Shown: positions 6,001 to 33,300 of the stretch, in pieces
How positions within the stretch are numbered: the stretch's first letter is position 1
Layout: every line of letters begins with the position of its first letter
Source of the DNA: an uncultured Eubacteriales bacterium
GTDB lineage: Bacteria > Bacillota > Clostridia > Christensenellales > CAG-1252
Reading direction: 5' to 3'
DNA length: 33,300 nt
Assembly: GCA_902797685.1 (NCBI GenBank)
Contig: CADBTQ010000046.1
Coordinates: 1 to 33,300 of the forward strand
Notes under the pieces: model-generated
What the model saw: the letters and a program-made list of their open reading frames with translations, nothing else
What the model was told of the DNA's origin: nothing
Databases searched by the model: none
Translations under genes and position numbers: made by a program

Positions 6001-7318
6001 TGTCCTCGATGCCGGTGACGGCGACCAACAAATCGCCGATCATCGCGCCCAAAGAGGTGTCTTTGTCCGAGCCGTTACGCAAAGTGACGGCGATCTCGGC
6101 GTCCCAGTTGACCGGGCTGAATTGTTGGAATTTGTCAAAGTCGGGCACGTCGAAACTCACCTTGGTGGTGTCGTCGCCCAAATAGTTGGAGTTGAGATCC
6201 ACGCCCAAAGCCCAATCTCTGCCGTAGCCCAAGTCGAGTTCGACCCCGTCGAAGGCTTCGTTGTGTTTGGAAATAGACAAGGTGGCGACGATATCCTCAA
6301 AGCGGAAGGCGAAGATGTCGTCCATGGTGATACCGAAAGCGGCGGACAGCACTCCGTCCACGTCGCCCAAGATGTCGCCCAAGCCCAAGTTCCAAAGACC
6401 TTTGATATTGCCGATCAAGTTGTTGACGAACACGTTGAGACCCATCGACAGAGTAAAGGTCTGTTTGACGTCGGTTTGATCGGGCGATACGACCGTAGTG
6501 ACGTAAGCGTCCTCGATCAACACGGTAAGCAGATTGTTGACGATACCCTTGATACCCAGCGTCTTGATGATGTCGGGACCGCCGTCAAGAAGGTTGTCGA
6601 GCAAAGATCCCAAGTCGCCCACGGCTCCACCTGCGGTATCCACCACGGAGGCGGCGGTGGAAAGGATGGTAGCCATGTCGATACCGTCGATATAGATGTT
6701 GGCGCCCTTGTCACCCATCAGATCGAAGTAGAACATACCCGCATCATAGTACGCTCCCATGATCAGTTGATCGGTGGCAGGCTGCTTGATCTCCAAAGAC
6801 AGGGTGGATTGCTCGTTTTTGGTCCGAGCGTCCGCGCTCTCGTCGGTAAGGTAGCGCATTTTGAGGTCAAGATAATACCCCGTGCTCTCCCCCTTATCGG
6901 TATAGATCACGTCGCTGACCAAATTGAGCACCAACCAGTTGCTCTTTTGGGAGATCTCGGTAAAGTTGGACAGTTCCCCTCCGCAATCGGGACAAACGAA
7001 CCAGTCGGGCAAAGCGCTAAACGGCGTAAACTCGGCAAACGAGGCGTCCTCGTCCTCGGGATCCGTATAGCCCTTGTTTTCGTCGTAGATCCACCCGCAC
7101 TCGTTACAACGATAGCGGGAAGCCCCCACAAACGTGACCAACTGATTGAGAACGGCGAAGGCGTCTTCGCTGTCCAAATGCCTCGTGGTCGTGACCGCTT
7201 CTTCTTCCTTGTCGGACGGCGTGACCTTGACCGACTTGTTACAAGCCGTGAGCAGGACGACTGCCGTAAGACACAGGAGCAATACAATGATGACTGTCAA
7301 GTTGATGCGTTTTTTCAT
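1..7318 (-). CDS. Giant repeat-built lipoprotein with N-terminal rubredoxin-like domain (C-terminus outside window)
   Basis: The frame is open from the ATG at 7318 to the left edge, at least 2,439 codons, and no end is visible. The start has GGAGG five bases upstream. The product opens with a lipoprotein signal (hydrophobic residues 7-24, lipobox LLTAC, Cys26), so the mature protein is probably anchored outside the membrane. Residues about 69-117 look like rubredoxin: CNEC (Cys71/Cys74), then LPDWFVCPDCG (Cys109/Cys112). The rest is a long series of diverged units of very roughly 250-300 residues. Each has a strand pair ending in a YVD-like motif, an LPxFxY-type segment and alternating hydrophobic GLxLxLS stretches. 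I see at least nine of these, near 6740, 5820, 4700, 4150, 3830, 2860, 2050, 1220 and 350. An eight-Cys stretch interrupts the series near 3675-3748. I do not recognise the repeat family. A surface or structural role is inferred. Large antisense open frames here are shadows. Confidence 0.85.
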   Translation of the reverse strand, partial: MKKRINLTVIIVLLLCLTAVVLLTACNKSVKVTPSDKEEEAVTTTRHLDSEDAFAVLNQLVTFVGASRYRCNECGWIYDENKGYTDPEDEDASFAEFTPFSALPDWFVCPDCGGELSNFTEISQKSNWLVLNLVSDVIYTDKGESTGYYLDLKMRYLTDESADARTKNEQSTLSLEIKQPATDQLIMGAYYDAGMFYFDLMGDKGANIYIDGIDMATILSTAASVVDTAGGAVGDLGSLLDNLLDGGPDIIKTLGIKGIVNNLLTVLIEDAYVTTVVSPDQTDVKQTFTLSMGLNVFVNNLIGNIKGLWNLGLGDILGDVDGVLSAAFGITMDDIFAFRFEDIVATLSISKHNEAFDGVELDLGYGRDWALGVDLNSNYLGDDTTKVSFDVPDFDKFQQFSPVNWDAEIAVTLRNGSDKDTSLGAMIGDLLVAVTGIEDMGNLTNSKLRLAEGDLGLDVRLQASLDLAHNERNHLQLLVSTLGQVGNVAKIVYDGTVEMLYVDLSGLDLPSFSYSFNLNSLMHSFITNPAIWHFLGGDSQAADIREAAMARYGGDTFEEAVRNFMRTGTYGLTAMAGETGTGDVLGAIPNVMSLLADLIRSGEIADGTLTVTITRDNLIDMLKAVARMAGGDLSATLVGEGYRFPTLNASTMDDPTLGGIAGALKHRTFSDNDLALRQVDLHLSFVTKTTSGDPYLGLDLGVDVKLAQDTTLTIAAPVVAVGFVPDFIPVTLTNEYTDLDSISELSFGAALAVEFDSGNVGEGEVTSLDLGNAIGTLRDSNVLGGYLKELAAVLQFEDRVQGGVVITVKGNVEIDPISLRTILAGSSLNVEVVDVELALEIYAKEAYLAGGATPVLTVYYTEDEYNVDAVFVDLSRLNLGGTNLPAFRYDVSLETMLNNALSSPRTAMAAERNWAAAEEGEEAPALSLDSLLRIAGGVLGGLAIDQTGISVYLAETMLDNLASLLLGVPVSGMLGVDGSSNLTVSVEDGLKIGIALGLNTNGSSDTNTFLRLSLSDLRLDMRKTAVLPADLDTQSYGSISDLSTVYAGAEIYVDYDMKSATYDVSDLLSVVDKVVDIQDESIARLLSDLLINLQVRGGQAGSVAGRLSVRIDANVDVGRLMGSSDGIGLSTILSGLTLRVQVNAGEMTLLTAWFDGVYLYVDANVGSTDLSGKTTGIKLEPFKVLIGSLPCGCTNPECIAAGSCYLPDGTTRCDDGECDCCKVAEADDEQQQVAIADLILQNLGILTNITITNNDDSKGIVVGLAKDTLKRLLNIIGVAALHIDSLYDGTALDGVKPTLDIDFTHGLGIGLTLHFVDTDPRGKEIDMGHLGFGLRNVSLAFSGQDIDLPDPDDYDELDLNGLGEMTVALTGNLTLSFDKQQGSITGDAPKGSLQDLVTTAVASLAGSRWTTAIGVPEAFEIRTSFDLIAGVNLAELDLNDLAGSVGGLLQDVQLLLNVYTLDAADNRIDTAISLYYDGRVHSVYARAPLFGVGAVRYDGLDLAELVGGLLGGDQQTAPAGETSNSDKLVALCFDQDGLALSVSGGLIGQALGLFGIDLGGLDVGTYLDTIGAGFTTSGGVSVSAGLAGIGLRLSLAGINLQAGAPDLSQTAFAVVKESEFASITDEQGSLAIKEIYAAVTVDMDILGDLPAPGAELSGTVGQILDKLGYAEQVDQLLQGLGLDQGINSILSALKVYLGMDLDAHLSLGVKLYADLTDLSNTGLVLALHGDDDINLLTLSFDGREDKVFVDLGDTALTANAKKFYIQGLGLSKLIEDNLGPVLQGLDFVAHADEEEEGLDILGLVGDVIEQINVVGVSGKSTMLEIITRADFLDSVLGLVGMEALVGVLPSVAVDLGLGINENGLAVDLGLNFLGQDDQVTFGLAVGLGGLQVGFARPADFFPSLDSYVPWNELNLGLDTRAQISVQLDQEYATKVNNLLGTLIEGDGLRLSVDTESGLANFDLGLDLAVNVELGGVSQAGLGELQVELFLSVYFSSDGEDLYRDSNRFVTLYYNNRDRHPSEDGTKTLIEESLYVMFGSDLGQGQGVRLDDLDIVELVLSLINQPTARAEDAVIAVNADQDEGLSLSVNNGLLALAVRLATAAGLLDSSALDIDLEETVNALFKEVVVEVGPQKSGLTLQLSDNSFAALTLSDYDLFFLSDGQDLTERDRYKSTIESLRSNAADMQTLGQLYLSAGLTVKAQMSSSTTVVDGEEQLTSDLVASYNDMLKLFLTSTLDKTVFYSVDVEMGVSGLDLTGISLARLGGSNLTDVVDNIINNMKLEMMVIIRDKLADPDLYPEGKPVVGIYYLSNAVDTIYIHIPALNMKVSVANAFDLHSIILNMLSGGKTAEAGEITVSDIVKLLGKLSLSDSGLALSLSTQVLSRALALAGLDVTAPDATSLIAIGNLQTLAAKTVTGDEITIGTDIEHGIGLHLGAMFA

Positions 7319-7329
7319 ACTTACCTCCA

Positions 7330-7348
7330 TCTTTCCTTATAGGAAAGA
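7330..7348 (-). promoter_or_regulatory. Leader hairpin next to the ribosome site of the giant gene
   Basis: TCTTTCCT (7330-7337), loop TAT, AGGAAAGA (7341-7348) form a perfect 8-bp stem with a 3-nt loop. It ends one base from the complement of the GGAGG ribosome site (7324-7328). It lies inside the predicted transcript, so it could stabilise the mRNA or tune translation. There is no U-run, so it is not a terminator. Confidence 0.45.
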
Positions 7349-21138: not shown

Positions 21139-21961
21139 TATGCCTTCGGCGCAAGGAAACCGATTATCCGTACCCCCCCCCCAAACAATCTATATCTTTA
21201 TATCCGCTTGGAGCGATGCCCGCGCAGTGAAGTGGGTACTCTCCCCAAAGCATCAAATCGATATATCCGCTTTTGGGGCTGTAGTGACGGCAAACGAAGG
21301 CGTCATGCACACCACAAGTGTATATGTAAGCCGAGTGCAGCCGTCTCAGCTCCACTCGTCGTGCCTCGCGCTTGAGGCTCAATGCACCTTTTGGGCACAT
21401 CTTCGCTTGACACACGGGCACTCCTCTCGGTGTCACGCCTTTTTTCAAACGCGCGCCACCGTTATGCCTTCGGCGCAAGAAACAAACTATGCACAACTAA
21501 AACCATCAAATCGTTATATCCGCTTTTGGGGCTGTAGTGACGGCAAACGAAGGCGTCATGCACACCAGCCACGCACCCTAACCATCAAATCGGTCTAACC
21601 GCTTGGAGCGATGCCCGCGCCGCGAAGTGGGTACTCTCCCCAAAGCATCAAATCGTTATATCCGCTTGGAGCGATAGTAGCGAAGTTGGCACAGCACCCA
21701 CAGCATCTATCGCTATATCCGCTTTGGCGCGATGACAACGAGTGAAGCCATAATCACACTATACTCCCACCTAAACCATCAAATCACTATATCCGCTTTG
21801 GAGCTGTAATGACGGCAAACGAAGGCGTCATGCACACCAGCAGCGCACCCAAACCATCAAATCGCTATATCCACTTGGAGCGATGCCCGCGCCGCGAAGT
21901 GCGTCGAACACCGCAGGTACTCGTAAGCCGAGCAAGCGGACTTCAGCTCCACGACACTGTG
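21139..21961. repeat. Non-coding array of eight degenerate direct repeats
   Basis: The core CATCAAATCG-N-TATATCCGCTT (or a variant) recurs at 21199, 21262, 21515, 21594, 21657, 21714, 21788 and 21866, mostly 57-79 bases apart. Between cores two segment types alternate: one with GGAGCGATGCCCGCGC and GTGGGTACTCTCCCC, the other with GTAGTGACGGCAAACG and GCGTCATGCACACC. A further duplicated word is ATGCCTTCGGCGCAAG (near 21139 and 21464). Units differ by indels and single bases. Short open frames across it are not genes. Confidence 0.8.
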
Positions 21962-21972
21962 CGGGCACAGTG

Positions 21973-22011
21973 CATTTTGTGGGGCTTTGCAAAGCAAAAC
22001 GCCACAAAATG
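21973..22011. repeat. Inverted repeat flanking a small palindrome
   Basis: CATTTTGTGG and CCACAAAATG flank CTTTGCAAAG, so a strong extended hairpin can form. It lies next to the tRNA terminator. Confidence 0.6.
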
Positions 22012-22042
22012 AAAAAGACACCTCGTAAAAGGTGTCTTTTTC
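22011..22042 (-). terminator. Native terminator downstream of the tRNA-Thr fragment
   Basis: GAAAAAGACACC (22011-22022), loop of eight, GGTGTCTTTTTC (22031-22042). It works in both directions and lies right after the CCA end of the tRNA fragment, as expected for the original tRNA gene. Confidence 0.88.
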
Positions 22043-22043
22043 G

Positions 22044-22091
22044 TGGAGCTGATGACCAGATTTGAACTGGTGACCCCGTCCTTACCAAGGA
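22044..22091 (-). pseudogene. 3' fragment of tRNA-Thr (GGU), candidate attachment site
   Basis: Leftwards this reads TCCTTGGTAAGGACG (anticodon arm with GGU), then GGTCACCAGTTCAAATCTGGTC with an intact T arm, the acceptor strand CATCAGCT and an encoded CCA: 48 nt, the 3' part of a tRNA-Thr. The matching 5' acceptor GCTGATG and the D arm are absent to the right, where AT-rich foreign DNA begins. The base that should pair at the start of the anticodon stem is already mismatched, so identity stops there. Tyrosine integrases commonly recombine at the anticodon arm and leave such a fragment at the far end. Confidence 0.82.
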
Positions 22092-22138
22092 TAAACACGA
22101 AAAATGAAGGGATGTGCTCTCTATAAAAATCGTTTTTC

Positions 22139-22163
22139 TTCCTATTTATATAATAAATAGGAA
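22139..22163. repeat. Inverted repeat inside the presumed element end
   Basis: TTCCTATTTA (22139-22148), five bases, TAAATAGGAA (22154-22163): a perfect 10-bp stem near the tRNA fragment. Function unknown; possible terminator or protein site. Confidence 0.5.
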
Positions 22164-22194
22164 AATGCGACTTATAATTCTTAAAATCGTCAAT

Positions 22195-22243
22195 GGCTAC
22201 ACTTTTTCGGAAAATTTGTGTAGCCAAGTGTAGCCAATGTAGC
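22195..22243. repeat. GTGTAGCC repeat cluster, candidate integrase arm sites
   Basis: GGCTACAC (22195-22202) is an inverted copy of GTGTAGCC (22218-22225 and 22228-22235), with a partial third copy TGTAGC (22238-22243). The direct copies are spaced ten bases. Short direct and inverted repeats 100-150 bases inside a tRNA att site are typical arm-type binding sites of tyrosine recombinases. Confidence 0.5.
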
Positions 22244-22330
22244 AAAATCAGGCAGTTTTAGGCAGAACCGGACAGTCAAATCGGCATATCTCGAAGACGC
22301 ATTTTTTCTTTGCAAATTTTTACTTTACTC

Positions 22331-22359
22331 TTGACAAACGAAGTAAAACAAAGTAAAAT
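22331..22359 (+). promoter_or_regulatory. Promoter of the AAA+ ATPase gene
   Basis: TTGACA (22331-22336), 17 bases, TAAAAT (22354-22359). The spacer and the -10 box are themselves part of a repeat series. Confidence 0.75.
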
Positions 22360-22380
22360 TAAGTAAAAAAGAGTAAACTA
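22341..22380 (+). repeat. Four 10-base-phased AAGTAAAA repeats over the promoter
   Basis: AAGTAAAACA, AAGTAAAATT, AAGTAAAAAA, GAGTAAACTA lie one helical turn apart. Just upstream a reversed copy reads TTTACTTTACTC. This looks like a cooperative repressor site. Confidence 0.7.
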
Positions 22381-22396
22381 AAAAGTGAGGGATGTT

Positions 22397-24154
22397 ATGA
22401 CCAAACAAGAAATACTCGATAGATTGTCCATTCTTCCGCAAGGTGGAATAACCGTAAAGAAAATCAAAGGGAAAAACGGCAAAACATACGAATATCACTT
22501 TCTTCAATGGCGGGAGAACGGAAAGCAAAAATCAAGAGCGTTGAAAGAAGACGAGATCGCCATCGTTCAAAGCCAATTAGAGGAAAGAAAGAGACTGGAA
22601 CGTCTGCTCGCATTCCCCGACGCGGAAGAAAAGACGCCGGTCGATTTTAACGTGCAGATAAGGATCGGCGCGGCACTTCGTTCTTATGTGGCGCCCGTCA
22701 AAGAACTGAAAAAGAGAAACGGATTCAAGGACATAACCGAGTACGTTTACGGAAACGAATACAATAAGGTTTTCATTCTGTACGGATTGAGGCGAACGGG
22801 AAAAACAACGCTCATCAAGCAAGTGATTGCCGAGATGTCGGACTCCGATTTTGACAGAGCCGCTTTCATTCAGATCACACCGAAAGACGACCTTGCGACG
22901 TTAAACAAAGACCTGAAAAAGTTAGAGGACGGCGGATACAAGTATGTGTTCATCGACGAAGTTACGTTCATGTCGGACTTCATCGAAGGCGCGGCGCTAT
23001 TATCCGATATTTATGCGGCGGTCGGAATGAAGATCGTCCTTTCGGGTACCGATTCTCTTGGTTTTTGGATCACGAAAAGCAACGAGTTGTACGATCGTTG
23101 CTGCTTGCTTCACACGACTTTTATTCCTTACAGAGAGTTTGCAAACGTGCTTGACGTTCACGGTATCGACAATTATATCCAATACGGCGGCACAATGAGT
23201 TTGAGTGGCATTCGCTATAACGATAGCGTGTTTGCCGACAAGAAAAGCACGGACGAATACGTCGACAGCGCGATTGCGCAGAACATCCAACACTCCTTGA
23301 AAGCATATCAATACGGCGGGCATTTCAGACACCTCTATTCGCTGTACGAAAAAGGCGAATTGACGAGTGCGATCAATCGTGTGGTCGAGGACATCAACCA
23401 TCGCTTTGCCATAGAGGTATTGGAGCGCGATTTCAAATCCAACGATTTACGGCTTTCGGCAAACAACCTACGTAAAGATCGTTTTGCGCCCACCACCATT
23501 CTCGACGATATTGACGTCGCCGCGTTTACCAAACGTCTAAAAGAGATATTGGACATTAAAGACAAAGATGAAAGAATGGTCAAGATAGACAAAGGTCATG
23601 TTGCGGAGATCAAAGAATATCTCGCCGCATTGGATCTGATCGAAGAGATCGACGTAAACGATATAAAAAATACAAACGGCAAAGAGAAGCGTATCGTGTT
23701 TTCTCAACCGGGGCTCCGCTACTCGCAGGCAAAATCCTTTATCGAATCTCTTTCGTCGGACGAGGTGTTCAACAATCTTTCCGCAGAAGAAAAAAAGCGT
23801 GTGATTACAAGGATATTGAACGAGATCAAAGGAAGAATGACCGAAGACGTTATATTGCTCGAAACCCAAAAGGCAAAACCACATAAAAAAGTTTTTAAGT
23901 TGCAATTTGCCGACGGTGAATTCGATATGGTCGTCAACGATCCCGATACGCTTGAAACGCAAATATACGAGATCAAGTTCAGCGCCGAAAGAGTTCCCGA
24001 GCAAGCGCGCCACCTACTTGACGAAAAGAAGTGTGCCGAAACCAACTTCCGCTACGGCAAGATTACCCAAAAGGTCGTCCTTTATCGCGGTGAAACTTGT
24101 AAGGAAGGCGACGTTGACTATATCAACGTGGAAGAATACCTGACGAACCTATAA
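22397..24154 (+). CDS. AAA+ ATPase with C-terminal nuclease-like motif
   Basis: A 585-residue protein. Residues 1-65 resemble a small DNA-element domain (QEILDRLSILPQGGITVKKI, QWRENGKQKSR). The motor follows: Walker A GLRRTGKTT (Lys136), Walker B VFIDE (Asp187, Glu188) and sensor-like LSGTDSLG. The C-terminal part has Asp510 and Glu525-Ile-Lys527, a D...ExK pattern of restriction-type nucleases, as in the AAA_14/DUF4143 group common on mobile elements. Its role is not known. The ATG at 22397 follows AGGG; a GTG at 22385 is less likely. Its base composition is closer to the host chromosome than to the AT-rich operon downstream, so it may belong to the element backbone rather than the cargo. 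Confidence 0.85.
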   Translation: MTKQEILDRLSILPQGGITVKKIKGKNGKTYEYHFLQWRENGKQKSRALKEDEIAIVQSQLEERKRLERLLAFPDAEEKTPVDFNVQIRIGAALRSYVAPVKELKKRNGFKDITEYVYGNEYNKVFILYGLRRTGKTTLIKQVIAEMSDSDFDRAAFIQITPKDDLATLNKDLKKLEDGGYKYVFIDEVTFMSDFIEGAALLSDIYAAVGMKIVLSGTDSLGFWITKSNELYDRCCLLHTTFIPYREFANVLDVHGIDNYIQYGGTMSLSGIRYNDSVFADKKSTDEYVDSAIAQNIQHSLKAYQYGGHFRHLYSLYEKGELTSAINRVVEDINHRFAIEVLERDFKSNDLRLSANNLRKDRFAPTTILDDIDVAAFTKRLKEILDIKDKDERMVKIDKGHVAEIKEYLAALDLIEEIDVNDIKNTNGKEKRIVFSQPGLRYSQAKSFIESLSSDEVFNNLSAEEKKRVITRILNEIKGRMTEDVILLETQKAKPHKKVFKLQFADGEFDMVVNDPDTLETQIYEIKFSAERVPEQARHLLDEKKCAETNFRYGKITQKVVLYRGETCKEGDVDYINVEEYLTNL

Positions 24155-24204
24155 TAATTTAGATAGAATAAAGAGATGTTGTAGTTCATTGACGCTATAT
24201 AAAC

Positions 24205-24233
24205 TTGATTATTTTGGCAAAATATGTTAAAAT
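24205..24233 (+). promoter_or_regulatory. Promoter of the six-gene operon
   Basis: TTGATT (24205-24210), 17 bases, TAAAAT (24228-24233). Predicted leader about 85 nt. No other promoter of equal quality is seen before 32949. Confidence 0.65.
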
Positions 24234-24268
24234 AAAGCAAATTCAATCGCAAAGCAAAAAGGCAATAG

Positions 24269-24306
24269 TAATCGACATTGATAACAATTATAAAAGCAGT
24301 CGATTA
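24269..24306 (+). promoter_or_regulatory. Inverted repeat in the leader of the operon
   Basis: TAATCGAC (24269-24276), 22-base loop, GTCGATTA (24299-24306). Perfect 8-bp arms just before the ribosome site GGGAG. Possible operator or RNA switch-like hairpin. Confidence 0.5.
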
Positions 24307-24323
24307 TCACGGGAGAAGCGAAT

Positions 24324-25481
24324 ATGCCTAAGATAATGGAAATTATCGAAAAAGAAACAAAAGGAAAAAGTTATCATACCTACAAATATAGTTATGATTC
24401 TATTGGATTGCCTACAATAGATTACGATGATGATCCTAATAAGGTCATGAAGTGGAGAGATTCAGCAGAGACAATTCAATATAAAAAGCCAGTTGATATC
24501 AAGCCTTTAGCAGATCAAATCCAATCTGAAGAGCCGCTTCTCAAGTATTTTTTAGACGGATCGCGTCATGTGTTTAAAGTAGATGATATTGCTTACAATA
24601 AACAGGTTTTTCCCGTAGTTGCGGGGCAAATCGGTGTAGGGTGTTGTCGGCGCGAGAATAAACAAATGTACAAAGAATTGTTTTATCGTGAGTTTGTCCT
24701 CTCGCTACCAGATAAAGCGGATGCAGACGGCTGGGATAAAACATATTTTTCTGCAATAACAAAAAAGGTAAATGAAAGTCCTGAACTTAAGCATTTAGGT
24801 ATTCAGTTTTCGTCAATTCTGCCGTATTCCACTTCAAAAATGGGGGCGCCCGACACAAAATTAGACAACTTGGCTGTCGGTAAAATTCAAGATTATATGA
24901 TTGAAGCGGAGAAACGGATGGTCGCAGAATTGGTCAGGAATAAAAAACTTGGACAAGACAGTTACCTGTTGAAAGATGGCTCATTAGAATACAAGGTTAT
25001 GAGATCAGGTCGCGAAGATTTGCGCGTTTTGCAAAAGATTAAGCATAATTACAACTGGGTAATTGGAGTGTCGAAATCTTTTAATCCTGAAAGTTGTCTT
25101 GATCATACAGGTAGACCTAATTCAAACTATATAGCGGATTTACCTTTGTTTCATAGAACTCCAGTCGCTCGCTATGAAAATAGTTATACTGGAGATGTTC
25201 AATTTGGCGTTTGGTACATACGACTGCGTGATAAACGTAGAACACAAACACCCTTTGATGGTGTCGTAAAAGTTGAGAAGATAATGATGGATGATGAGAT
25301 TGAACACGGAATAGATAGCGATATTATAGATTTGATTTCAGCAAATATCATTAACGAAAGGAATCCTACCTGTTATGGAACAGATAGGAGATGGGCAAAT
25401 CACCTATACCCTGTTTTTTTGACAGAGTCTTTCGTGAAGAGTCAGTATATTAGTGCGGAAATGTTCCTACAACTTTTTTAA
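24324..25481 (+). CDS. NurA-like nuclease
   Basis: A 385-residue protein. Asp78-Gly-Ser80 (FLDGSRHVF) fits the N-terminal active-site motif of the NurA nuclease fold. Later segments with WVIGVSKSF and FGVWYIRLRDKRR match the general layout of NurA-type proteins. The following gene is a HerA ATPase, the standard NurA partner, which strengthens the call. NurA cuts DNA while HerA pumps it, first known from archaeal end resection. GGGAG precedes the start. The sequence is far from the well-studied archaeal family, so the identification rests partly on context. First gene of the operon, 11 bases before herA. Confidence 0.65.
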   Translation: MPKIMEIIEKETKGKSYHTYKYSYDSIGLPTIDYDDDPNKVMKWRDSAETIQYKKPVDIKPLADQIQSEEPLLKYFLDGSRHVFKVDDIAYNKQVFPVVAGQIGVGCCRRENKQMYKELFYREFVLSLPDKADADGWDKTYFSAITKKVNESPELKHLGIQFSSILPYSTSKMGAPDTKLDNLAVGKIQDYMIEAEKRMVAELVRNKKLGQDSYLLKDGSLEYKVMRSGREDLRVLQKIKHNYNWVIGVSKSFNPESCLDHTGRPNSNYIADLPLFHRTPVARYENSYTGDVQFGVWYIRLRDKRRTQTPFDGVVKVEKIMMDDEIEHGIDSDIIDLISANIINERNPTCYGTDRRWANHLYPVFLTESFVKSQYISAEMFLQLF

Positions 25482-25492
25482 GGAGAAATATA

Positions 25493-27208
25493 ATGAGTAC
25501 GAGTAATATAATTGGAAGAATCCTTGCCACGGAGAAAAGCCCTACGACCATTGATGACTTTACGTTTTGGACGGCACAAGATTTAATTCTTAATCCGTTT
25601 GATATCGTTAAAGTTCAGCATGTAAATGGTTCATATACATACGGCGTAATTGAGGACATTGCCCATATAACAGATGCCGCCAGTTTTTTGACCAATTTTA
25701 TTTCAAGCGATTTCGGTGATGTAAATGCAGAAGAAAACACTTTGAGAATTGGAATGAATTATGTGTCGGCAAAGGTTATTTGTAACACTGCGAATATCTA
25801 TATTCCGTTACAAAGCAATGCGAAAGTAATGCTCGCTTCTGCTGAAGAGATCAATTATGCGCTTGGCCTGGATGATATAAAGAACCCGCTCGTATGTGGT
25901 TACTTAGAAATGTATGAAGGCACAAAGAATTGTGAAAAAGTAGTACTTCCCGTAAACTTAAATTCAAAGTTTATTATCGGTCCGGAGGGTGCGCATTTAA
26001 ATATCTCGGGTATTTCTGGATTAGCCTCAAAAACATCATACGCAATGTTCCTTTTGAAAGCGATTCAAGATAGCTATTTAAAAAAAGAAAAGGCGACTGA
26101 CGAGGAAGAAGACAGTGTTGCTTTTGTTTTGTTTAATGTAAAAGGCAAAGATTTGCTTGCGATAGATCAAATGAATGATTTTTCAGATGAAAGAAATCCT
26201 GAACAGGCAAAACAAGAAATATTAGCAAAATATAAAGAATTAGGCTTGTCTGCGGAACCATTTAAAAACGTCCATTATTATTATCCTTATTCCATTCCAA
26301 ACACAAGGAATTGGAATACATACATGACTCCTCAAGAAGTTGAAGACAATATTAAAAAGAAGAAGGCAAAAAAATATAAGTATGTCTACAAATATGATAA
26401 AGATAACTTAGATTTAATGTTTGCCAATATTGATGATTCTACGCAAACAATGGAATCAATCATTAGTTATATTATGTCTGGGCAAGGGAAATTTGCTCAA
26501 GTAAGCGATTGGCAAGGGTTCTTAGAGGCTGTGCATGAAAAATGTTCAACAGAAACATCAGGCAAAGACAAAGAAATCCCTGTTGCTAGTTGGCGCAAGT
26601 TTTATCGCATTATTAATAAAAGCATTACTGATAACAAGATTTTTGCGCGAGATATTCGCGAAGATAATAATGAAACACGTATCGGAGATGCAATAAAATA
26701 CATCAAAAAGAACGAAGTACACGTCATTGATATTGCTAAATTGTCAGAAGATAAACAGGCTTATGTCTTTGGTGATGCAATCCGAACAATTTATGATTTA
26801 CAACTTGGACAATATAGTGGGGAAGAAGGTGTAAATCCGCCGTCGAGAATCGTCATATTTATAGATGAATTGAACAAATATGCGTCAAAAGATACGCCGA
26901 AAAATTCGCCGATTTTACGCCAAGTGTTAGATGTTGCAGAACGTGGGCGTTCTTTAGGAGTAGTTTTATTTGCGGCAGAACAATTCAGAAGTGCTATTCA
27001 TGATCGTGTAACTGGGAACTGCTCTACACATGCTTATGGTAGGACCAATTCTATCGAGGTAACTAAAGGAGATTACAAGAGCATTCCTTCAGTATACAAA
27101 ACAATGATGACGAGATTAAAACAAGGGGAATATATAATTCAAAATCCCGTTTTTAGGTCATTATTAAGCATTAAGTTCCCGAAACCGATTTATAAACAAT
27201 TCAAATGA
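25493..27208 (+). CDS. HerA-like DNA-translocating ATPase
   Basis: A 571-residue ATPase. The N-terminus (residues 1-110) is a beta-rich HAS-barrel-like domain. The P-loop around residues 171-182 reads ISGISGLASKTS, with Ser where Gly normally precedes Lys and one extra residue, a variant I associate with a divergent HerA group. Walker B is IVIFIDEL (Asp458, Glu459). The run DVAERGRSLGVVLFAAEQF carries the probable arginine finger and sensor region. HerA forms a hexameric ring that threads DNA. AAGGAG precedes the start. A central insertion with a poly-Lys stretch (about 280-300) is unusual. Confidence 0.85.
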   Translation: MSTSNIIGRILATEKSPTTIDDFTFWTAQDLILNPFDIVKVQHVNGSYTYGVIEDIAHITDAASFLTNFISSDFGDVNAEENTLRIGMNYVSAKVICNTANIYIPLQSNAKVMLASAEEINYALGLDDIKNPLVCGYLEMYEGTKNCEKVVLPVNLNSKFIIGPEGAHLNISGISGLASKTSYAMFLLKAIQDSYLKKEKATDEEEDSVAFVLFNVKGKDLLAIDQMNDFSDERNPEQAKQEILAKYKELGLSAEPFKNVHYYYPYSIPNTRNWNTYMTPQEVEDNIKKKKAKKYKYVYKYDKDNLDLMFANIDDSTQTMESIISYIMSGQGKFAQVSDWQGFLEAVHEKCSTETSGKDKEIPVASWRKFYRIINKSITDNKIFARDIREDNNETRIGDAIKYIKKNEVHVIDIAKLSEDKQAYVFGDAIRTIYDLQLGQYSGEEGVNPPSRIVIFIDELNKYASKDTPKNSPILRQVLDVAERGRSLGVVLFAAEQFRSAIHDRVTGNCSTHAYGRTNSIEVTKGDYKSIPSVYKTMMTRLKQGEYIIQNPVFRSLLSIKFPKPIYKQFK

Positions 27209-27218
27209 GGTAATAGCG

Positions 27219-28772
27219 ATGGCAACCGTAGGCAAAAATATTCTTGAAAACCTTACGACAGGAATGTATTCTGATTCGACAGTCATTTATCGTGAATACA
27301 TTCAAAATGCTTGTGATCAAATTGACATTGCCGTTAAGCAAGGATTAATGAGTAACGCCGATGCAATGGTCGACATTTTTATTGATAGTAGTAAACGTTA
27401 TATAAGCATTAAAGATAATGCGACAGGCGTAAAATCCTCTGTGTTTGTAGAGGATTTGGGCGATATTGCAAACTCCAATAAAGAAATTGGCAAGAACAAA
27501 GGGTTTCGTGGAATTGGTCGCCTTTGCGGTTTGGCGTATTGCAAAACACTCAGGTTTTCAACGAGTTTTTTTGGCGAACCAATTCGCTCTATTATGATTT
27601 GCGACGCAAAGAAAATGCGAGCAATGCTGATGGAGAATAAAAAGTATACTCTTGATGAAATTTGGGATGCTATTGTTTCTTTTGAAACAGTAACTGAAGA
27701 AAGTGCTGAGCATTACTTTGAAGTCGAAATGTTTGATATTAATCATGAAAATACGGATTTGCTTGATGAGAAAAAGGTAAAAGAGTATTTAAGTTTTGTC
27801 GCACCGGTCCCATATAAAAACACATTCATTTTGAGAAATCAAATCTATAATCACGCCAAAGTAATTAATTACAAGATTGATGAGTACTGCGTTAAAGTAA
27901 ATGGCTGTCAGATTTTTAAAGAGTATACGACAAAACTAAAGGAGAATGTCGGTGCTAATTTAAAAAACTACGATGAGATTTCAAAACTGGAGTTTCATGA
28001 TTTTATTGATGGAAAAGGTGAACTGCTCGCATGGATGTGGATAGGATTGTCCCGATTTGAAAAATCGATTCCTAAAATCAATCAAATGCGCGGAATTAGG
28101 TTAAGAAGTTCCAATATTCAATTAGGTAATGATGACGTTTTGCAAAAATTATTTAAAGAAAATCGCGGGAATTACTACTTTGTGGGAGAAGTCTTTGCTG
28201 TTAGTAAGGAGTTGATTCCAAACTCGCAACGTGATTATTTTAATGAAAATGAAGCACGCGTTCTCTTTGAAGATAAGTTAAGAGAGTATTTTTATGATGT
28301 TCTCCATAAGCTATATTATGATGCAAATAGAATTAAAAATATCTATAAACGTCAAGAAGAATACATAAGCAAGGTATCGGAATATAAGAAAAAAAGCGAT
28401 GAAAATGGTTTTGTTGATGAAGCAGCAAGACAAAAAATGCAAGATGAGATGAATCGCGCCAAGCAAGAAGCTGAGGAAGCAAGGCGACAGCTTGGAAAAT
28501 ATGATTTGAGTGATGAAACGCCACTTGCTGAAGTTCACAGAAGTATCGGGAGAAAATTTGATGCGGAAAATTTAGTGCGTGAAGCAACCGATACAAATGT
28601 TGTTGATGAGGAAGCAGACACCAAGAAAAAAAGCTATATTACTGCTACGATGTCAAAGCTTTCAAGAAGCGAGCGGAAGCTTGTTAGTAGAATATTGACC
28701 ATTATTACCGATATCGCGCCGAAAGATGTCGCTGAAATGATTATTGAGAAAATAAAAGAAGAACTAAAGTAG
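27219..28772 (+). CDS. HSP90-type (GHKL) ATPase, first copy
   Basis: A 517-residue protein with the Bergerat ATP fold: N box REYIQNACD (Asn30), G1 box DNATG (66-70) and G2 lid GFRGIGR (95-101). These place it in the HSP90-like branch rather than histidine kinases, since no phosphoacceptor domain is seen. The C-terminal about 130 residues are coiled-coil-like with many Glu, Lys and Arg. GAGGT is before the ATG. It lies ten bases after herA. A similar protein ends the operon, but the two are only distantly related outside the ATP site. The role (clamp, sensor or chaperone) is inferred only. Confidence 0.85.
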   Translation: MATVGKNILENLTTGMYSDSTVIYREYIQNACDQIDIAVKQGLMSNADAMVDIFIDSSKRYISIKDNATGVKSSVFVEDLGDIANSNKEIGKNKGFRGIGRLCGLAYCKTLRFSTSFFGEPIRSIMICDAKKMRAMLMENKKYTLDEIWDAIVSFETVTEESAEHYFEVEMFDINHENTDLLDEKKVKEYLSFVAPVPYKNTFILRNQIYNHAKVINYKIDEYCVKVNGCQIFKEYTTKLKENVGANLKNYDEISKLEFHDFIDGKGELLAWMWIGLSRFEKSIPKINQMRGIRLRSSNIQLGNDDVLQKLFKENRGNYYFVGEVFAVSKELIPNSQRDYFNENEARVLFEDKLREYFYDVLHKLYYDANRIKNIYKRQEEYISKVSEYKKKSDENGFVDEAARQKMQDEMNRAKQEAEEARRQLGKYDLSDETPLAEVHRSIGRKFDAENLVREATDTNVVDEEADTKKKSYITATMSKLSRSERKLVSRILTIITDIAPKDVAEMIIEKIKEELK

Positions 28773-28779
28773 GCAATAT

Positions 28780-30675
28780 ATGAATCGTAAAGTGTTGCTC
28801 ATTGAGCCAGATTATCACAATAAATATCCCCCGATGGGATTAATGAAACTTGCTACATATTACAGAATGGTTGGTGATGATGTTCGTTTTTATAAAGGGG
28901 ACATGAAAACTCTTGCCGCAGAATTAATATGCGAGGATTTGCTCAACCATCTTAAACTCGTTTATCCTGATGTGTTTTGGCAAGGCTTTTATTTAACATT
29001 TCTTGAATATATAAAACTCGGTAAAAGTGCAATTATTGAAAATAGCGAAATACCCAAAGATGATATGCTTTTAGAAACACTAAAAACATTTCATACAAGA
29101 TATAAGAAAAAAGAGTATTTTTCAAATCCTCGTTTCGATAAAGTTGGTATTACGACTTTATTTACTTTTTATTGGGATAAAACGATCGAAACCATTAATT
29201 TCGCCAAGAAACTATGCAAGTCAGAATCTGATGTAATGGTGGGCGGAATCATGTCTTCTTTGCTTCCTGATGAAGTATATCAAGCGACAGGGATTAAACC
29301 TTTTGTTGGCTTATTAAATCATCCGGGAGATATTGACGAAGGTAATGAGTTAATAATAGATGAATTGCCTCTTGACTATTCTATATTAGACGAAATTGAT
29401 TATGTCTATCCGGCGCACAACGCTTATTTTGCCTATATGACAAGAGGTTGTGTAAATAAATGTAGGTTTTGTGCTGTACCAAAGCTTGAGCCACAGTATT
29501 GTGATTATATCAATTTGAAAAATAGAATAGAGTTTACAAAACAAAGATTTGGAGAACAAAGAGATCTTCTTTTGCTAGATAATAATGTTTTGGCATCAAA
29601 ATGTTACGATCAGATTATTGACGAAATAAAAGAGTGCGGATTTGGCGTTGGAGCAACATATTCCGTTCCCAATGATTATGACATTACCATAAACAATCTA
29701 AAAGATTCCTATAATGATCGCGCATATATCCGTAAAGCGGTAAAAATATACCGCGAAATTATAGAAAAATTAACAGACGACGCCGAGAAGGCTGATTTGT
29801 ATTTGAAATTGGAAACTGCGCATTGTCTGTGCCACTATACAGCGACGAAAGAAGCAATCCTTTCACTAGATGATTATGTAAGACCTTTATATGAAAAAAC
29901 GCATAAACCATCTAAAAGAAAACGTATAGTTGATTTTAACCAAGGGATAGATTCACGTCTGATTAATGAGTCAAATATGACCAAACTTGCTGAAGTGAAT
30001 ATTTATCCTTTACGAATTGCTTTTGATCATTGGAAATTAAAAGATATTTATGAAAACTCTATTCGTACTGCAGTAAAGTGCGGGATAAAAAGTCTATCCA
30101 ATTACCTCCTTTATAACTTTGAAGATAAGCCAGAGGAATTGTATTACAGGCTTAGAATGAATGTAGATCTCTGCGAAGAACTCGGCGCAAGCATATACTC
30201 ATTTCCAATGAAGTATCACCCTATTAATGATAAAGAGTTTTTCATGAACAGGGATTACATAGGGAAGCATTGGAATAGGAAATTCATCCGTGCGGTACAA
30301 GCGGTATTAAATTCAACAAAGGGAAAAATTGGCAGAGGTGTTGAGTTTTTCGAGGAAGCCTTTGGTAGGGATGTCGATGAGTTTATGCGGATTCTGTGGA
30401 TGCCGGAAACGTTTATAATTTATCGTAGAATGTATGATGAAAATCTAAGAAATAGGCTTGCAGAAAAGTATAAAACTCATTCAAAAAACGACTGCAACTT
30501 GGCAAATGAGTGGTGGGAAAAATTTTCATCGCTTTCTAACAAAAAGAGAGAAGCGGCTAAAACAATCATTGCTCTTAATCACTTTAAGGTTGGTGAATAT
30601 GAGTGTAATGATGACGAGATAGAAGCGGTTATAAATTATTATCGTATAACACGGAATGATGCAGAATTACATTAG
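28780..30675 (+). CDS. Radical SAM enzyme with B12-binding-type N-terminal domain
   Basis: A 631-residue protein. The N-terminus VLLIEPDYHNKYPPMGLMKL and later VMVGGIMSSLLPDEV follow the B12-binding domain pattern found before radical SAM cores, but the base-off His motif is not seen. The core has RGCVNKCRFC with Cys224, Cys228 and Cys231 (CxxxCxxC) for the 4Fe-4S cluster. A helical stretch of about 80 residues (roughly 305-385) is inserted after the first half of the barrel. A long C-terminal part is not recognised. Members of this group methylate or rearrange unreactive carbon atoms, but the substrate here is unknown. The ribosome site is weak and the gene lies only seven bases after the first GHKL gene. 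Confidence 0.85.
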   Translation: MNRKVLLIEPDYHNKYPPMGLMKLATYYRMVGDDVRFYKGDMKTLAAELICEDLLNHLKLVYPDVFWQGFYLTFLEYIKLGKSAIIENSEIPKDDMLLETLKTFHTRYKKKEYFSNPRFDKVGITTLFTFYWDKTIETINFAKKLCKSESDVMVGGIMSSLLPDEVYQATGIKPFVGLLNHPGDIDEGNELIIDELPLDYSILDEIDYVYPAHNAYFAYMTRGCVNKCRFCAVPKLEPQYCDYINLKNRIEFTKQRFGEQRDLLLLDNNVLASKCYDQIIDEIKECGFGVGATYSVPNDYDITINNLKDSYNDRAYIRKAVKIYREIIEKLTDDAEKADLYLKLETAHCLCHYTATKEAILSLDDYVRPLYEKTHKPSKRKRIVDFNQGIDSRLINESNMTKLAEVNIYPLRIAFDHWKLKDIYENSIRTAVKCGIKSLSNYLLYNFEDKPEELYYRLRMNVDLCEELGASIYSFPMKYHPINDKEFFMNRDYIGKHWNRKFIRAVQAVLNSTKGKIGRGVEFFEEAFGRDVDEFMRILWMPETFIIYRRMYDENLRNRLAEKYKTHSKNDCNLANEWWEKFSSLSNKKREAAKTIIALNHFKVGEYECNDDEIEAVINYYRITRNDAELH

Positions 30676-30702
30676 AGACAACTGAAAGGAGAAATAAAAG
30701 GT

Positions 30703-31485
30703 ATGCCATATAATAATCCTATTCCAGATTTAAAAGAAGAAAAGAGCAATATCATCGTAGAAGATTTGCAACAGGACTATACACAAATACAGCAAGTGTA
30801 TTTTGCATTTATTGATGTGCTTGGCTTTAAAAAGACATTTGATGAAATAAAACTACTTAATAAATTGGAAGCGGTGAAAAAATATAAAGATGTCTTTAAT
30901 TACTATTTTGGTCTAATGAATGCCGCTCTTTTTATGCAAAACGGGGGAATAACTGGTTGTTATGCAGGGCAAACATCAGATAGTTTGTATTTTTATACTA
31001 ATCGAAAAGATTTTCTTTTACAGTTTATTCGTATTTTTTCCCATTTAAACCTATATGCAATGTCACAAGATGTTTTTTTCAGGGGCGGAATAGCAAAAGG
31101 GCTTTTATATAAAAAAGAAGCTCACCAATTTTTTGGAGATAGTGTGATAGGCGCATATTTATTAGAAAGTAATATTTCAAAGAATCCTATTATTATGGTT
31201 GATGAACAAACGCATAATGATATGAAATCAGAGCCCGGATATACAGAATTAATAGAAACAACAGGGGATGAACGCCATTACTTAAAGCCGTTTGCATTAA
31301 TGAAACAGCCGTGTGCTTTGGATATTGATGAAAGTTTTGAACAAAAAGATATTGATCCAAGTGCCATAAAAGCCAAAATTGATCAGAATTGCCTCACATT
31401 TGAATATGATGAAAAGAATCATTCAAAGTATGTATTTTTGAGAGACCTATATAATAAAGCTACAAACGATAAAAAGGAGGAATAA
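30703..31485 (+). CDS. Class III nucleotidyl cyclase-fold-like protein, possibly catalytically altered
   Basis: A 260-residue protein. FIDVLGFK (Asp38) and SDSLYFY (Asp93) sit where the two metal-binding aspartates of class III cyclases occur. RGGIAKG (127-133) and FGDSVIGAYLLE (144-155) follow the usual order. In the last motif the family pattern VNxAARLE is replaced by VIGAYLLE, so the normal transition-state Asn and Arg are Ile149 and Leu153. It may bind nucleotides without cycling them, or use another mechanism. AAAGGAG is upstream. It ends one base before the next gene. Pycsar systems use cyclases of this fold, but no matching effector is clear. Confidence 0.55.
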   Translation: MPYNNPIPDLKEEKSNIIVEDLQQDYTQIQQVYFAFIDVLGFKKTFDEIKLLNKLEAVKKYKDVFNYYFGLMNAALFMQNGGITGCYAGQTSDSLYFYTNRKDFLLQFIRIFSHLNLYAMSQDVFFRGGIAKGLLYKKEAHQFFGDSVIGAYLLESNISKNPIIMVDEQTHNDMKSEPGYTELIETTGDERHYLKPFALMKQPCALDIDESFEQKDIDPSAIKAKIDQNCLTFEYDEKNHSKYVFLRDLYNKATNDKKEE

Positions 31486-31486
31486 A

Positions 31487-32935
31487 ATGATGGATTATAA
31501 TGTTGGTGCAAGTATATTAGGTGTTATTACAGAATCATTGTATGATAATCCTATCGTTGTTTTTCGTGAGTATGTGCAAAATTCTGTGGATTCAATTATA
31601 AAAACTGATAAAAATGAATATTGCGAAATAAGGATTTGGTGGGATGGCACAAATCTGTTTTTCATAGATAATGGACATGGCGTAGACCGAGGTTTATTTA
31701 TTAAAGAAATGATAAAAATAGGTTCATCTAGTAAAAAAAGACAAAGCAATCTAGGCTATAAAGGAATTGGAAGATTGTCAGGCGTTCCATACTGTCAGGA
31801 GCTCTTATTTATAAATATTTATGATTATGCGCAAGATGCCGCCCAACTCTACTCCATTGATGGAGTAAAATATAATGCAATAAAAGAAGAAGATACATAT
31901 AATTCCCTGAGTTTTGAGGAGTTAATGCAGAAGATAGGGAGTTATAGAGATATTGCTTTAAGCGATATTAATTCTTTGGTCAAAGATTTAACACAATATG
32001 ATTATTTGCTTAAGACAACAAACACGGGTTTTGTAGTTGTACTTAAAAATGTTAAAGAGGTTCTTAGCGCAACGATAAATGATGATTCTTTTATTACAGA
32101 TTTAGAATGGTTGTTGCCAGTTGATTTTTTACCGAGTTTGTACGAGTCGAATGAAACACAATTATTTAAAGATTTAACAGATAAAGAACAAGAAAGAGTC
32201 CCTGTGCGCTTTTGTAATATTTATTACAATGATAGACAATTGTATAGACCAATTAAACAGGAGATGCTAAGAGATTATGTGTGTAAAAGCAATTTTAGCC
32301 AGTATGCCGTGGGGTTTCATTCGTTCAAAAGCGATAAGATTTCTATAGAAAGAAATAACCCATTTCAAGGAATTAGAATCTATATCGATAATATGCTATT
32401 GTGTGACGAAAGTGTATTAATACAATCATTAGCAAATTATGGGTTGCTATCGCATACAATTAACGGGCAACTTCAATCAATTAGAGGTTTAGGAGCAATG
32501 ATCTATATAACAGATAAAACTAATATTAGGGCAAACGCGCGTAGAACATTTTTGGAAGTAACAGATAATGATTCGATCGCTTTTTTGCGGTTATTAGCAG
32601 AATTTGTTAATACGGTATATGACACAAGATATGCACTCTCAAATTATTTTTCCTTTAAACAGAAACATGCAAATAATGGGGAAACATTAAAAAAACTACG
32701 ACAAAATGCGATTGATAACTTAAAAAAATTAGCTTCAGAAACTATTTCACTTCCAGACGAAGGCGAATTACCCCTTGATAGCGACAATGAAACAGATAAA
32801 AAATACTATTTAAAGAAAAGAATCGGTAGCGTTTTAGACAAGAAAATTAAGCAATACCTTGAAGTGGTTACTAATTATGATATAGAAAAAGCGTATTATA
32901 ACTTTATAGAATGGTTGAACAAAAACTTAGATTAA
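31487..32935 (+). CDS. HSP90-type (GHKL) ATPase, second copy
   Basis: A 482-residue protein with N box REYVQNSVD (Asn32), DNGHG (61-65) and GYKGIGR (90-96). It shares the ATP-binding motifs and order of domains with the copy encoded before the radical SAM gene, including N-terminal NILxxxxxGMY-like or SILGVITESLY segments, but has diverged elsewhere. The start ATG is doubled (31487 and 31490); AAAAGGAGG fits both. It follows the cyclase-like gene after one base, so translation is probably coupled. Last gene of the operon. Confidence 0.85.
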   Translation: MMDYNVGASILGVITESLYDNPIVVFREYVQNSVDSIIKTDKNEYCEIRIWWDGTNLFFIDNGHGVDRGLFIKEMIKIGSSSKKRQSNLGYKGIGRLSGVPYCQELLFINIYDYAQDAAQLYSIDGVKYNAIKEEDTYNSLSFEELMQKIGSYRDIALSDINSLVKDLTQYDYLLKTTNTGFVVVLKNVKEVLSATINDDSFITDLEWLLPVDFLPSLYESNETQLFKDLTDKEQERVPVRFCNIYYNDRQLYRPIKQEMLRDYVCKSNFSQYAVGFHSFKSDKISIERNNPFQGIRIYIDNMLLCDESVLIQSLANYGLLSHTINGQLQSIRGLGAMIYITDKTNIRANARRTFLEVTDNDSIAFLRLLAEFVNTVYDTRYALSNYFSFKQKHANNGETLKKLRQNAIDNLKKLASETISLPDEGELPLDSDNETDKKYYLKKRIGSVLDKKIKQYLEVVTNYDIEKAYYNFIEWLNKNLD

Positions 32936-32948
32936 ATTAAACCATAGT

Positions 32949-33300
32949 ATGAAAACCATCTTATACACTTTTGCCGATGGGCATAAAGAAGAATTGGAAG
33001 TAACAGACGAAGTCGCGGAAGTGTTCTACGAGCTTGAGAAATATGAGCAGAAAGTGAACAGGAAAGAAACGCGGCGGCACATCTCGTTGGATATGCTTGA
33101 AGAAGCCGGTTTTGAGTTCGCCGATCCCGAATCGGATATTGAAATCGTGTGGGAGAAACGCGAGGAAGAAGAACTCGAAGACGAATTGGCACAGATAGAA
33201 GACGAGCGACTTGAGCGTAAACAAAAGTGGTTGGAGTCGCGGCTCACGGCGCGGCAAGCGCAAGCCTACTTCAAGTTCAAGTATCTTGAAATGAAGAAAG
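32949..33300 (+). CDS. Sigma-70-like mobile-element protein (C-terminus outside window)
   Basis: The frame is open from the ATG at 32949 to the right edge, about 117 residues. The layout (short beta start, VTDEVAEVFYELEKYE, RRHISLDMLEEAGFEF, then a charged helix and a KYLEMKK end) resembles small sigma-factor-like proteins that ride on integrative elements in Firmicutes, where the helix-turn-helix would come next. No ribosome site is seen. Base composition returns to GC-richer values here, so this is probably element backbone, not cargo. The call is tentative because the DNA-binding part is missing. Confidence 0.5.
   Translation, partial: MKTILYTFADGHKEELEVTDEVAEVFYELEKYEQKVNRKETRRHISLDMLEEAGFEFADPESDIEIVWEKREEEELEDELAQIEDERLERKQKWLESRLTARQAQAYFKFKYLEMKK

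Follow-up and report, generated by a model that had tools for sequence, protein, structure and literature searches.

In Islander, the ends of genomic islands within tRNA genes are marked by a restored tDNA on one side and a displaced tDNA fragment on the other (PMC4383910). Among its 3919 islands, 3760 have a 3′ fragment and 2083 are anticodon-centred, and tyrosine integrases are the only kind known to target tDNAs (PMC4383910). HerA-type ATPases and NurA-type nucleases, which are relevant for the cargo described below, have been found together in a complex of D. radiodurans and as adjacent genes in a phage, Marinitoga camini virus 1. In the HerA-DUF4297 and SIR2-HerA systems, a HerA-family ATPase stands beside an effector nuclease in defence islands. 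A further HerA/NurA-like complex is TdpAB, the effector of a phosphorothioate-based defence system.

The DNA analysed here (the window) is a whole contig of 33,300 bp, C46, from a genome (G000) of 1.78 Mb in 95 contigs. Like the Islander-type tRNA islands, this locus has a displaced 3′ fragment at one end, a restored tRNA at the other with identity from the anticodon loop onward, an element-borne terminator, and arm-like repeats near both ends; it differs in that the ends lie on two unjoined contigs and no integrase was recovered, and is otherwise not unusual (PMC4383910). The tRNA-Thr island is thus a routine member of a well-known class. Its boundary features in the window are the following:

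22011 to 22043, minus strand: hairpin and T-run directly 3′ of the fragment, on the chromosomal side, read as the original host tRNA-Thr terminator from its sequence and from alignment to a relative (G002)
22044 to 22091, minus strand: displaced 3′ piece of tRNA-Thr(GGU), 48 bp, very likely the attL core, with one other exact copy in the genome
22082 to 22088, minus strand: anticodon loop TTGGTAA, the inferred 7-bp crossover region
22092 to 33300, no strand: left part of the element, running off the end of C46, where the contig breaks in a two-copy gene
22217 to 22261, plus strand: arm-type repeats GTAGCCAA..GTAGCCAATG, some 125-170 bp from the core into the island, putative arm sites of an integrase, matched on a second contig (C18)
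32949 to 33300, plus strand: first part of a small, possibly sigma-factor-like gene that has a second copy in the genome and is cut by the contig end (94% identity over 352 bp to C42:40-391, minus strand)

Read on the minus strand from 22091 to 22044, the fragment is TCCTTGGTAAGGACGGGGTCACCAGTTCAAATCTGGTCATCAGCTCCA, which comprises, in this order, three nucleotides of the 5′ anticodon stem, the loop TTGGTAA with the GGU anticodon, the 3′ anticodon stem, the variable loop, the T arm, the 3′ acceptor strand, and CCA. The first-pass annotation, which was made from the sequence of the window alone, had listed the T arm, the acceptor 3′ strand, CCA, and GGU correctly; its full anticodon arm has to be reduced, as only 3 of the 5 nucleotides of the 5′ stem strand are present. 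It had also placed the missing 5′ half on the island side, and indeed the 5′ half of the tRNA-Thr is lacking at 22044-22091, where the minus-strand sequence starts three nucleotides before the anticodon loop. ARAGORN called no tRNA at these positions, as expected for half a gene, and no intact tRNA was found elsewhere in the window. The terminator ascribed to the fragment is present as well, as a hairpin and T-run reading GACACC..GGTGTCTTTTTC on the minus strand. At the fragment edge, the GC content changes exactly, from 55.5% (1-22043) to 36.4% (22092-33300). Chance similarity to a tRNA was considered and rejected: 0 matches to the fragment are expected in the window, and a reversed-pattern control over the whole genome delivered no exact 48-mer, compared with two for the real pattern.

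Two further observations concern the DNA to the left. Imperfect direct repeats (21180-21960, with units such as 'atatccgctttggagcgatgcccgcgccgcgaagtg') fill the stretch that separates the last host gene from the tRNA fragment, and similar units are also found on contig C23 of a relative (G001). At the far left, the minus strand carries a very long open frame (2-7330, >2,400 aa) that is open at the contig start; it begins like a lipoprotein and has, close to the N-terminus, a rubredoxin-like CxxC segment.

The genome contains the 48-bp core in two copies, both perfect in a pattern search that allowed three mismatches: the one in the window and C18:366-413 (minus strand). The latter belongs to an intact tRNA-Thr(GGT) gene (C18:366-441, minus strand), of which it forms the 3′ part. 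A full tRNA-Thr(GGU) had been predicted for the other end of the element, and here it is found with an exact 48-bp direct repeat in the expected polarity, so that the lack of a far-end repeat, named beforehand as a counter-argument, does not apply. The Islander signature is therefore present: one end has the intact tDNA (C18:366-441), the other a displaced piece of that tDNA (22044-22091). Past the 3′ end of the intact tRNA, C18 continues for 365 bp and then stops; these first 365 bp have a GC content of 37.8%, compared with 52.9% in the rest of that contig. The missing 5′ half of the C46 fragment faces the island, as does the 3′ end of the intact gene on C18, and both the direct-repeat orientation and the polarity of the copies, which sit on two unjoined contigs, fit one island. 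Similar terminators adjoin the tRNA sequence at both ends. Identity between the fragment and the intact tRNA ends three nucleotides beyond the loop TTGGTAA, as anticipated by the claim that it stops at the anticodon stem, and because the identity of the two ends starts three nucleotides before this loop, the simplest reading would be an exchange within it.

A second sequence is shared by the two ends. Positions 22217-22261 match C18:109-153 with 89% identity over 45 bp (E 6e-10) and no other place in the genome, and repeats of the form GTAGCCAA(G/A)TGTAGCCAATG are common to the island-side DNA of both contigs. The 20-mer GTAGCCAAGTGTAGCCAATG occurs exactly at 22220-22239 and C18:91-110, nowhere else in the genome, with a one-mismatch copy at C18:112-131. 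Arm sites of tyrosine integrases typically lie where these repeats are found, 125-275 bp inside both ends.

No tyrosine integrase gene was found in the window or on C18, and part of the island is absent from the assembly. A genome-wide search with PF00589 gave two matches, of which the one on C73 is a Xer-like gene and the one on C16 a C-terminal remnant; neither is linked to the island. The remnant lies by a tRNA-Arg(CCT) gene and beside enolase (L063, C16:10432-10850), and together with this tRNA it probably represents a decayed second island. The genome does encode three serine recombinases with PF07508 (on C89, C90, and C12), and relatives of the conserved cargo cassette in other genomes lie near serine recombinases, which raises the question whether the element was inserted by a large serine recombinase instead of a tyrosine integrase. 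We consider this unlikely, since targeting of tRNA genes is known only for tyrosine integrases (PMC4383910), none of the three PF07508 genes is on C46 or C18 or otherwise linked to either end, and the core and arm repeats look tyrosine-type.

The island is longer than 11.5 kb. The two contigs could not be joined by sequence: apart from self-matches, the last 341 bp of the window match nothing but C42, and C18:1-365 nothing but the left end of C46. Of 396 genomes of the order, 54 have relatives of the small gene at the right end, and a scan of a wider collection of genome contigs with this gene gave no relative. On C42 (L088, 1-6500), a second element adjoins a host gene for an RlmD-like methyltransferase; its cargo includes an AAA-ATPase and a nucleotidyltransferase-like gene, and the contig ends in the same small gene as the window. 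As this gene is common to C46 and C42, two related elements share a module at which the assembly broke. With C46 and C18 unjoined and at least one further element in the genome carrying the right-end gene, the window and C18 could also be the ends of two different tRNA-Thr elements, in tandem or rearranged. This is less probable still, because the assembly holds only two core copies, where a tandem pair would leave a third, and because the arm repeats of both ends match each other.

Five other genomes of the same genus were drawn for comparison, and an intact matching tRNA-Thr was found in four of them. No separate tRNA-Thr fragment, and no fragment in the absence of the intact tRNA, occurs in the same-genus genomes with a match, so that the relative with a lone fragment but no island, which would have spoken against the first-pass annotation, was not among them. 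The 110 bp that follow the tRNA in G002 and those that follow the window fragment align with z 10.7. Past the terminator, z is still 5.5-6.5 depending on the cut point (6.1 beyond the hairpin), with 0 of 500 shuffles as good; this part of the comparison is with G002 as the single relative, its contig stopping 203 bp after the tRNA. The island side of C18 has no match to G002 beyond the terminator (z <1), and upstream of the tRNA, on its chromosome side, C18 is collinear with C17 of G002. Since G002 aligns with the window flank and not with the island side of C18, the flank represents the original chromosome, and C18:1-365 belongs to the element. G002 thus provides the comparison with an island-free relative that had been proposed as a check: its intact tRNA runs straight into DNA like the left flank of the window, without an element, which is the uninterrupted tRNA site of the Islander definition. 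A conserved gene order of the left flank was also considered and rejected, as the genes farther left in the window (deaminase, Rho) sit elsewhere in the relatives, where the left-flank gene order differs.

In three species of the genus, extra copies of the tRNA-Thr 5′ half closely precede the intact gene, namely at L001 (G000:C18, 500-640, minus strand), G002:C17 313-392, and G001:C141 ~3398-3500. They fold in a tRNA-like manner (-30 to -39.5 kcal/mol), with the 3′ part paired to the 5′ acceptor and D region, and the G002 copy is barely above the Rfam tRNA cut-off. As they are present in relatives without the island, these copies are not an island product. Near the intact tRNA-Thr of a further species of the genus lies a serine recombinase that is distributed over several frames (L062, G003:C80, 623-2262). 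Although partial tRNA-Thr copies thus do occur here, it is the least probable of the alternatives that the fragment is a remnant of ordinary tRNA duplication and decay, unrelated to low-GC DNA that came by another route, because the copies in G000, G001, and G002 are 5′ halves whereas the window has an exact 3′ piece ending at the anticodon, with a GC step on its edge and arm repeats that are unique to the island sides of both tRNA copies.

We are therefore confident that a genomic island sits in the tRNA-Thr(GGU) gene, with 22044-22091 as its attL and with the attR on C18. The 48-bp pair, the shared arm repeats, the GC step, and the empty site in G002 together uphold the original proposal that the fragment marks the left end of an integrated element. 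The element has brought its own copy of the tRNA 3′ part, from the anticodon loop to CCA, plus its own terminator, and this copy now completes the tRNA at the far end on C18, while the displaced 3′ part and terminator of the host are left at 22011-22091. A tyrosine integrase would bind the anticodon-stem core of attP and the flanking arm repeats, with strand exchange presumably in the anticodon loop; its gene would be located in the unassembled DNA between C46 and C18.

The cargo of the element in the window consists of the following genes, all upstream of the small gene at the contig end:

22385 to 24154, plus strand: AAA_14-type ATPase, first gene of the element, outside the conserved cassette (PF13173, E 2.3e-11)
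24324 to 25481, plus strand: cassette gene 1, NurA-like nuclease, from an AlphaFold2 model, its structure match, and conserved residues
25493 to 27208, plus strand: cassette gene 2, HerA-like ATPase with a variant Walker A (GISGLASKTS; HerA 7f6d profile match, E 5e-49)
27219 to 28772, plus strand: cassette gene 3, Hsp90/HtpG-type GHKL ATPase (profile match to HtpG 2ior, E 2.9e-11)
28780 to 30675, plus strand: cassette gene 4, radical-SAM protein (PHROG 9298, E 1.2e-36)
30703 to 31485, plus strand: accessory gene (PHROG 23933, E 7.5e-12)
31487 to 32935, plus strand: second GHKL ATPase, accessory (PF13589, E 2.7e-08)

Genes 1 and 2 received no name from Pfam, NCBIfam, or PHROGs. By sequence, gene 1 resembles NurA weakly (7f6d_H, E 0.71). 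Its AlphaFold2 model, built with 30 sequences (pLDDT 84.6), matches the D. radiodurans NurA chain 7f6d_G with a Z-score of 20.2 (295 aligned residues, rmsd 3.5; Foldseek E 5.5e-12), followed by TM1739 (Z 18.7), Sulfolobus NurA (2ygk_A, Z 15.3), and the TdpAB chain 8wfd_G (Z 14.8), so that the protein is predicted to have the NurA RNase-H-like fold. Candidate active-site residues are D78 and H360, conserved in 30 of 30 sequences, and D218 (29 of 30). Gene 2 has the HerA sequence profile with both Walker motifs; G173, G176, K180, T181, D458, and E459 are invariant in 25 sequences, and its Walker A has one extra residue and a spacing that differs from GxxGxGKS. In gene 3, E26, N30, and D66 are invariant, and HATPase_c_3 was matched in 19 of 20 family members. 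The cysteines of the CxxxCxxC motif in gene 4 (C224, C228, and C231) are invariant in 22 sequences.

As in the D. radiodurans HerA-NurA complex (PDB 7f6d), a HerA profile match in gene 2 is combined with a NurA fold in the gene 1 model; here, however, the pair comes with two further proteins, a GHKL ATPase of the Hsp90 type and a radical-SAM protein, is located on mobile elements, and has a HerA with a variant Walker A. With TdpAB (PDB 8wfd), the cassette shares a NurA-type subunit fold paired with a HerA-type ATPase, but no TdpC/DndC-like PP-loop enzyme was seen in the cassette, which has the radical-SAM and GHKL genes instead. HerA-DUF4297 and SIR2-HerA have in common with it the HerA-family ATPase by an effector nuclease in defence islands, whereas the partner here is NurA-like rather than DUF4297 or SIR2 and two further conserved genes are present. 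The adjacent nurA-herA pair of Marinitoga camini virus 1 (KP836355) lacks an annotated GHKL or radical-SAM neighbour; judged from its hhalign matches to the cassette families (E 3.9e-23 and 1.8e-68), it is a distant relative of cassette genes 1 and 2.

The cassette (24324-30675, with genes starting at 24324, 25493, 27219, and 28780) was traced with a three-member HerA-like alignment, which found 80 loci in genome contigs and one viral contig (81 in total). All four genes are present in the same order and strand in 53 of the 59 loci with room for the whole block. According to the record titles, and including a few contigs that are too short or without one cassette gene, the loci belong to Bacillota, Bacteroidales, Planctomycetaceae, Cloacimonadota, Ignavibacteria, Synergistales, Chloroflexi, Chlorobiaceae, Desulfobulbaceae, and one Methanomicrobiales archaeon. 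In bacteria labelled Eubacterium and Oscillospiraceae, the HerA-like protein is up to 90% and the NurA-like protein up to 86% identical to that of the window, and such values in other taxonomic groups indicate horizontal movement of the cassette. The AAA_14-type ATPase has no relative in the 81 loci. The accessory gene is found in 5 of 81, in four of these five beside a close relative of the second GHKL gene, whose relatives with 55-57% identity are in L125, L132, L134, and L137. In a few loci, these two genes form a unit directly downstream of the cassette (30703-32935 in the window), which is inverted in L137.

PADLOC 2.0.0 (2023) has no system that matches the four-gene set: genes 1, 3, and 4 gave no match, and gene 2 gave weak mad8 and HerA matches (HerA E 5.5e-4). 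A Mads system was rejected, as the similarity is limited to mad8 and no other Mads gene is present. At E 1e-20, 63 family matches were obtained in 87 genes flanking the cassette at 16 loci, including AbiE, AbiL, type IV restriction, DpdF, HEC-06, and PsyrT, compared with three families (mad3/mad2/AriA type) in a control of 50 mostly chromosomal genes; because the control was hand-picked, PADLOC was used without system rules, and several models can match one protein, the link to defence is one of guilt by association. Pfam matches in the flanks include MobA/MobL, relaxase, resolvase, TrbL, RloB, and GmrSD. Both defence and mobility genes are abundant around the cassette.

The cargo (the ATPase gene, the four-gene cassette, and the two accessory genes) is probably an anti-phage or anti-plasmid system, and the four-gene set is a candidate defence cassette that may be an undescribed anti-virus system; the literature searched contained no description of a NurA/HerA/GHKL/radical-SAM set. 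More tentatively, and with some doubt on our side, 24324-30675 could be an undescribed, widely mobile four-gene defence system in which a DNA-translocating HerA-NurA nuclease is coupled to an Hsp90-type GHKL ATPase, acting in sensing or assembly, and to a radical-SAM enzyme that produces either a mark on self DNA or an activating molecule. In such a working model, invading DNA would be degraded by HerA-NurA, the GHKL ATPase would sense or license the degradation, and the radical-SAM enzyme would make the self-mark or signal.

The tRNA scar provides the exact left boundary of the island, and the right boundary follows via C18 despite the broken assembly. With both boundaries at hand, the cargo can be regarded with confidence as foreign. 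If the cassette is a defence system, it would extend the HerA-NurA nuclease by an Hsp90-type ATPase and a radical-SAM enzyme, and this combination was found in neither the 2023 defence library nor the literature searched.
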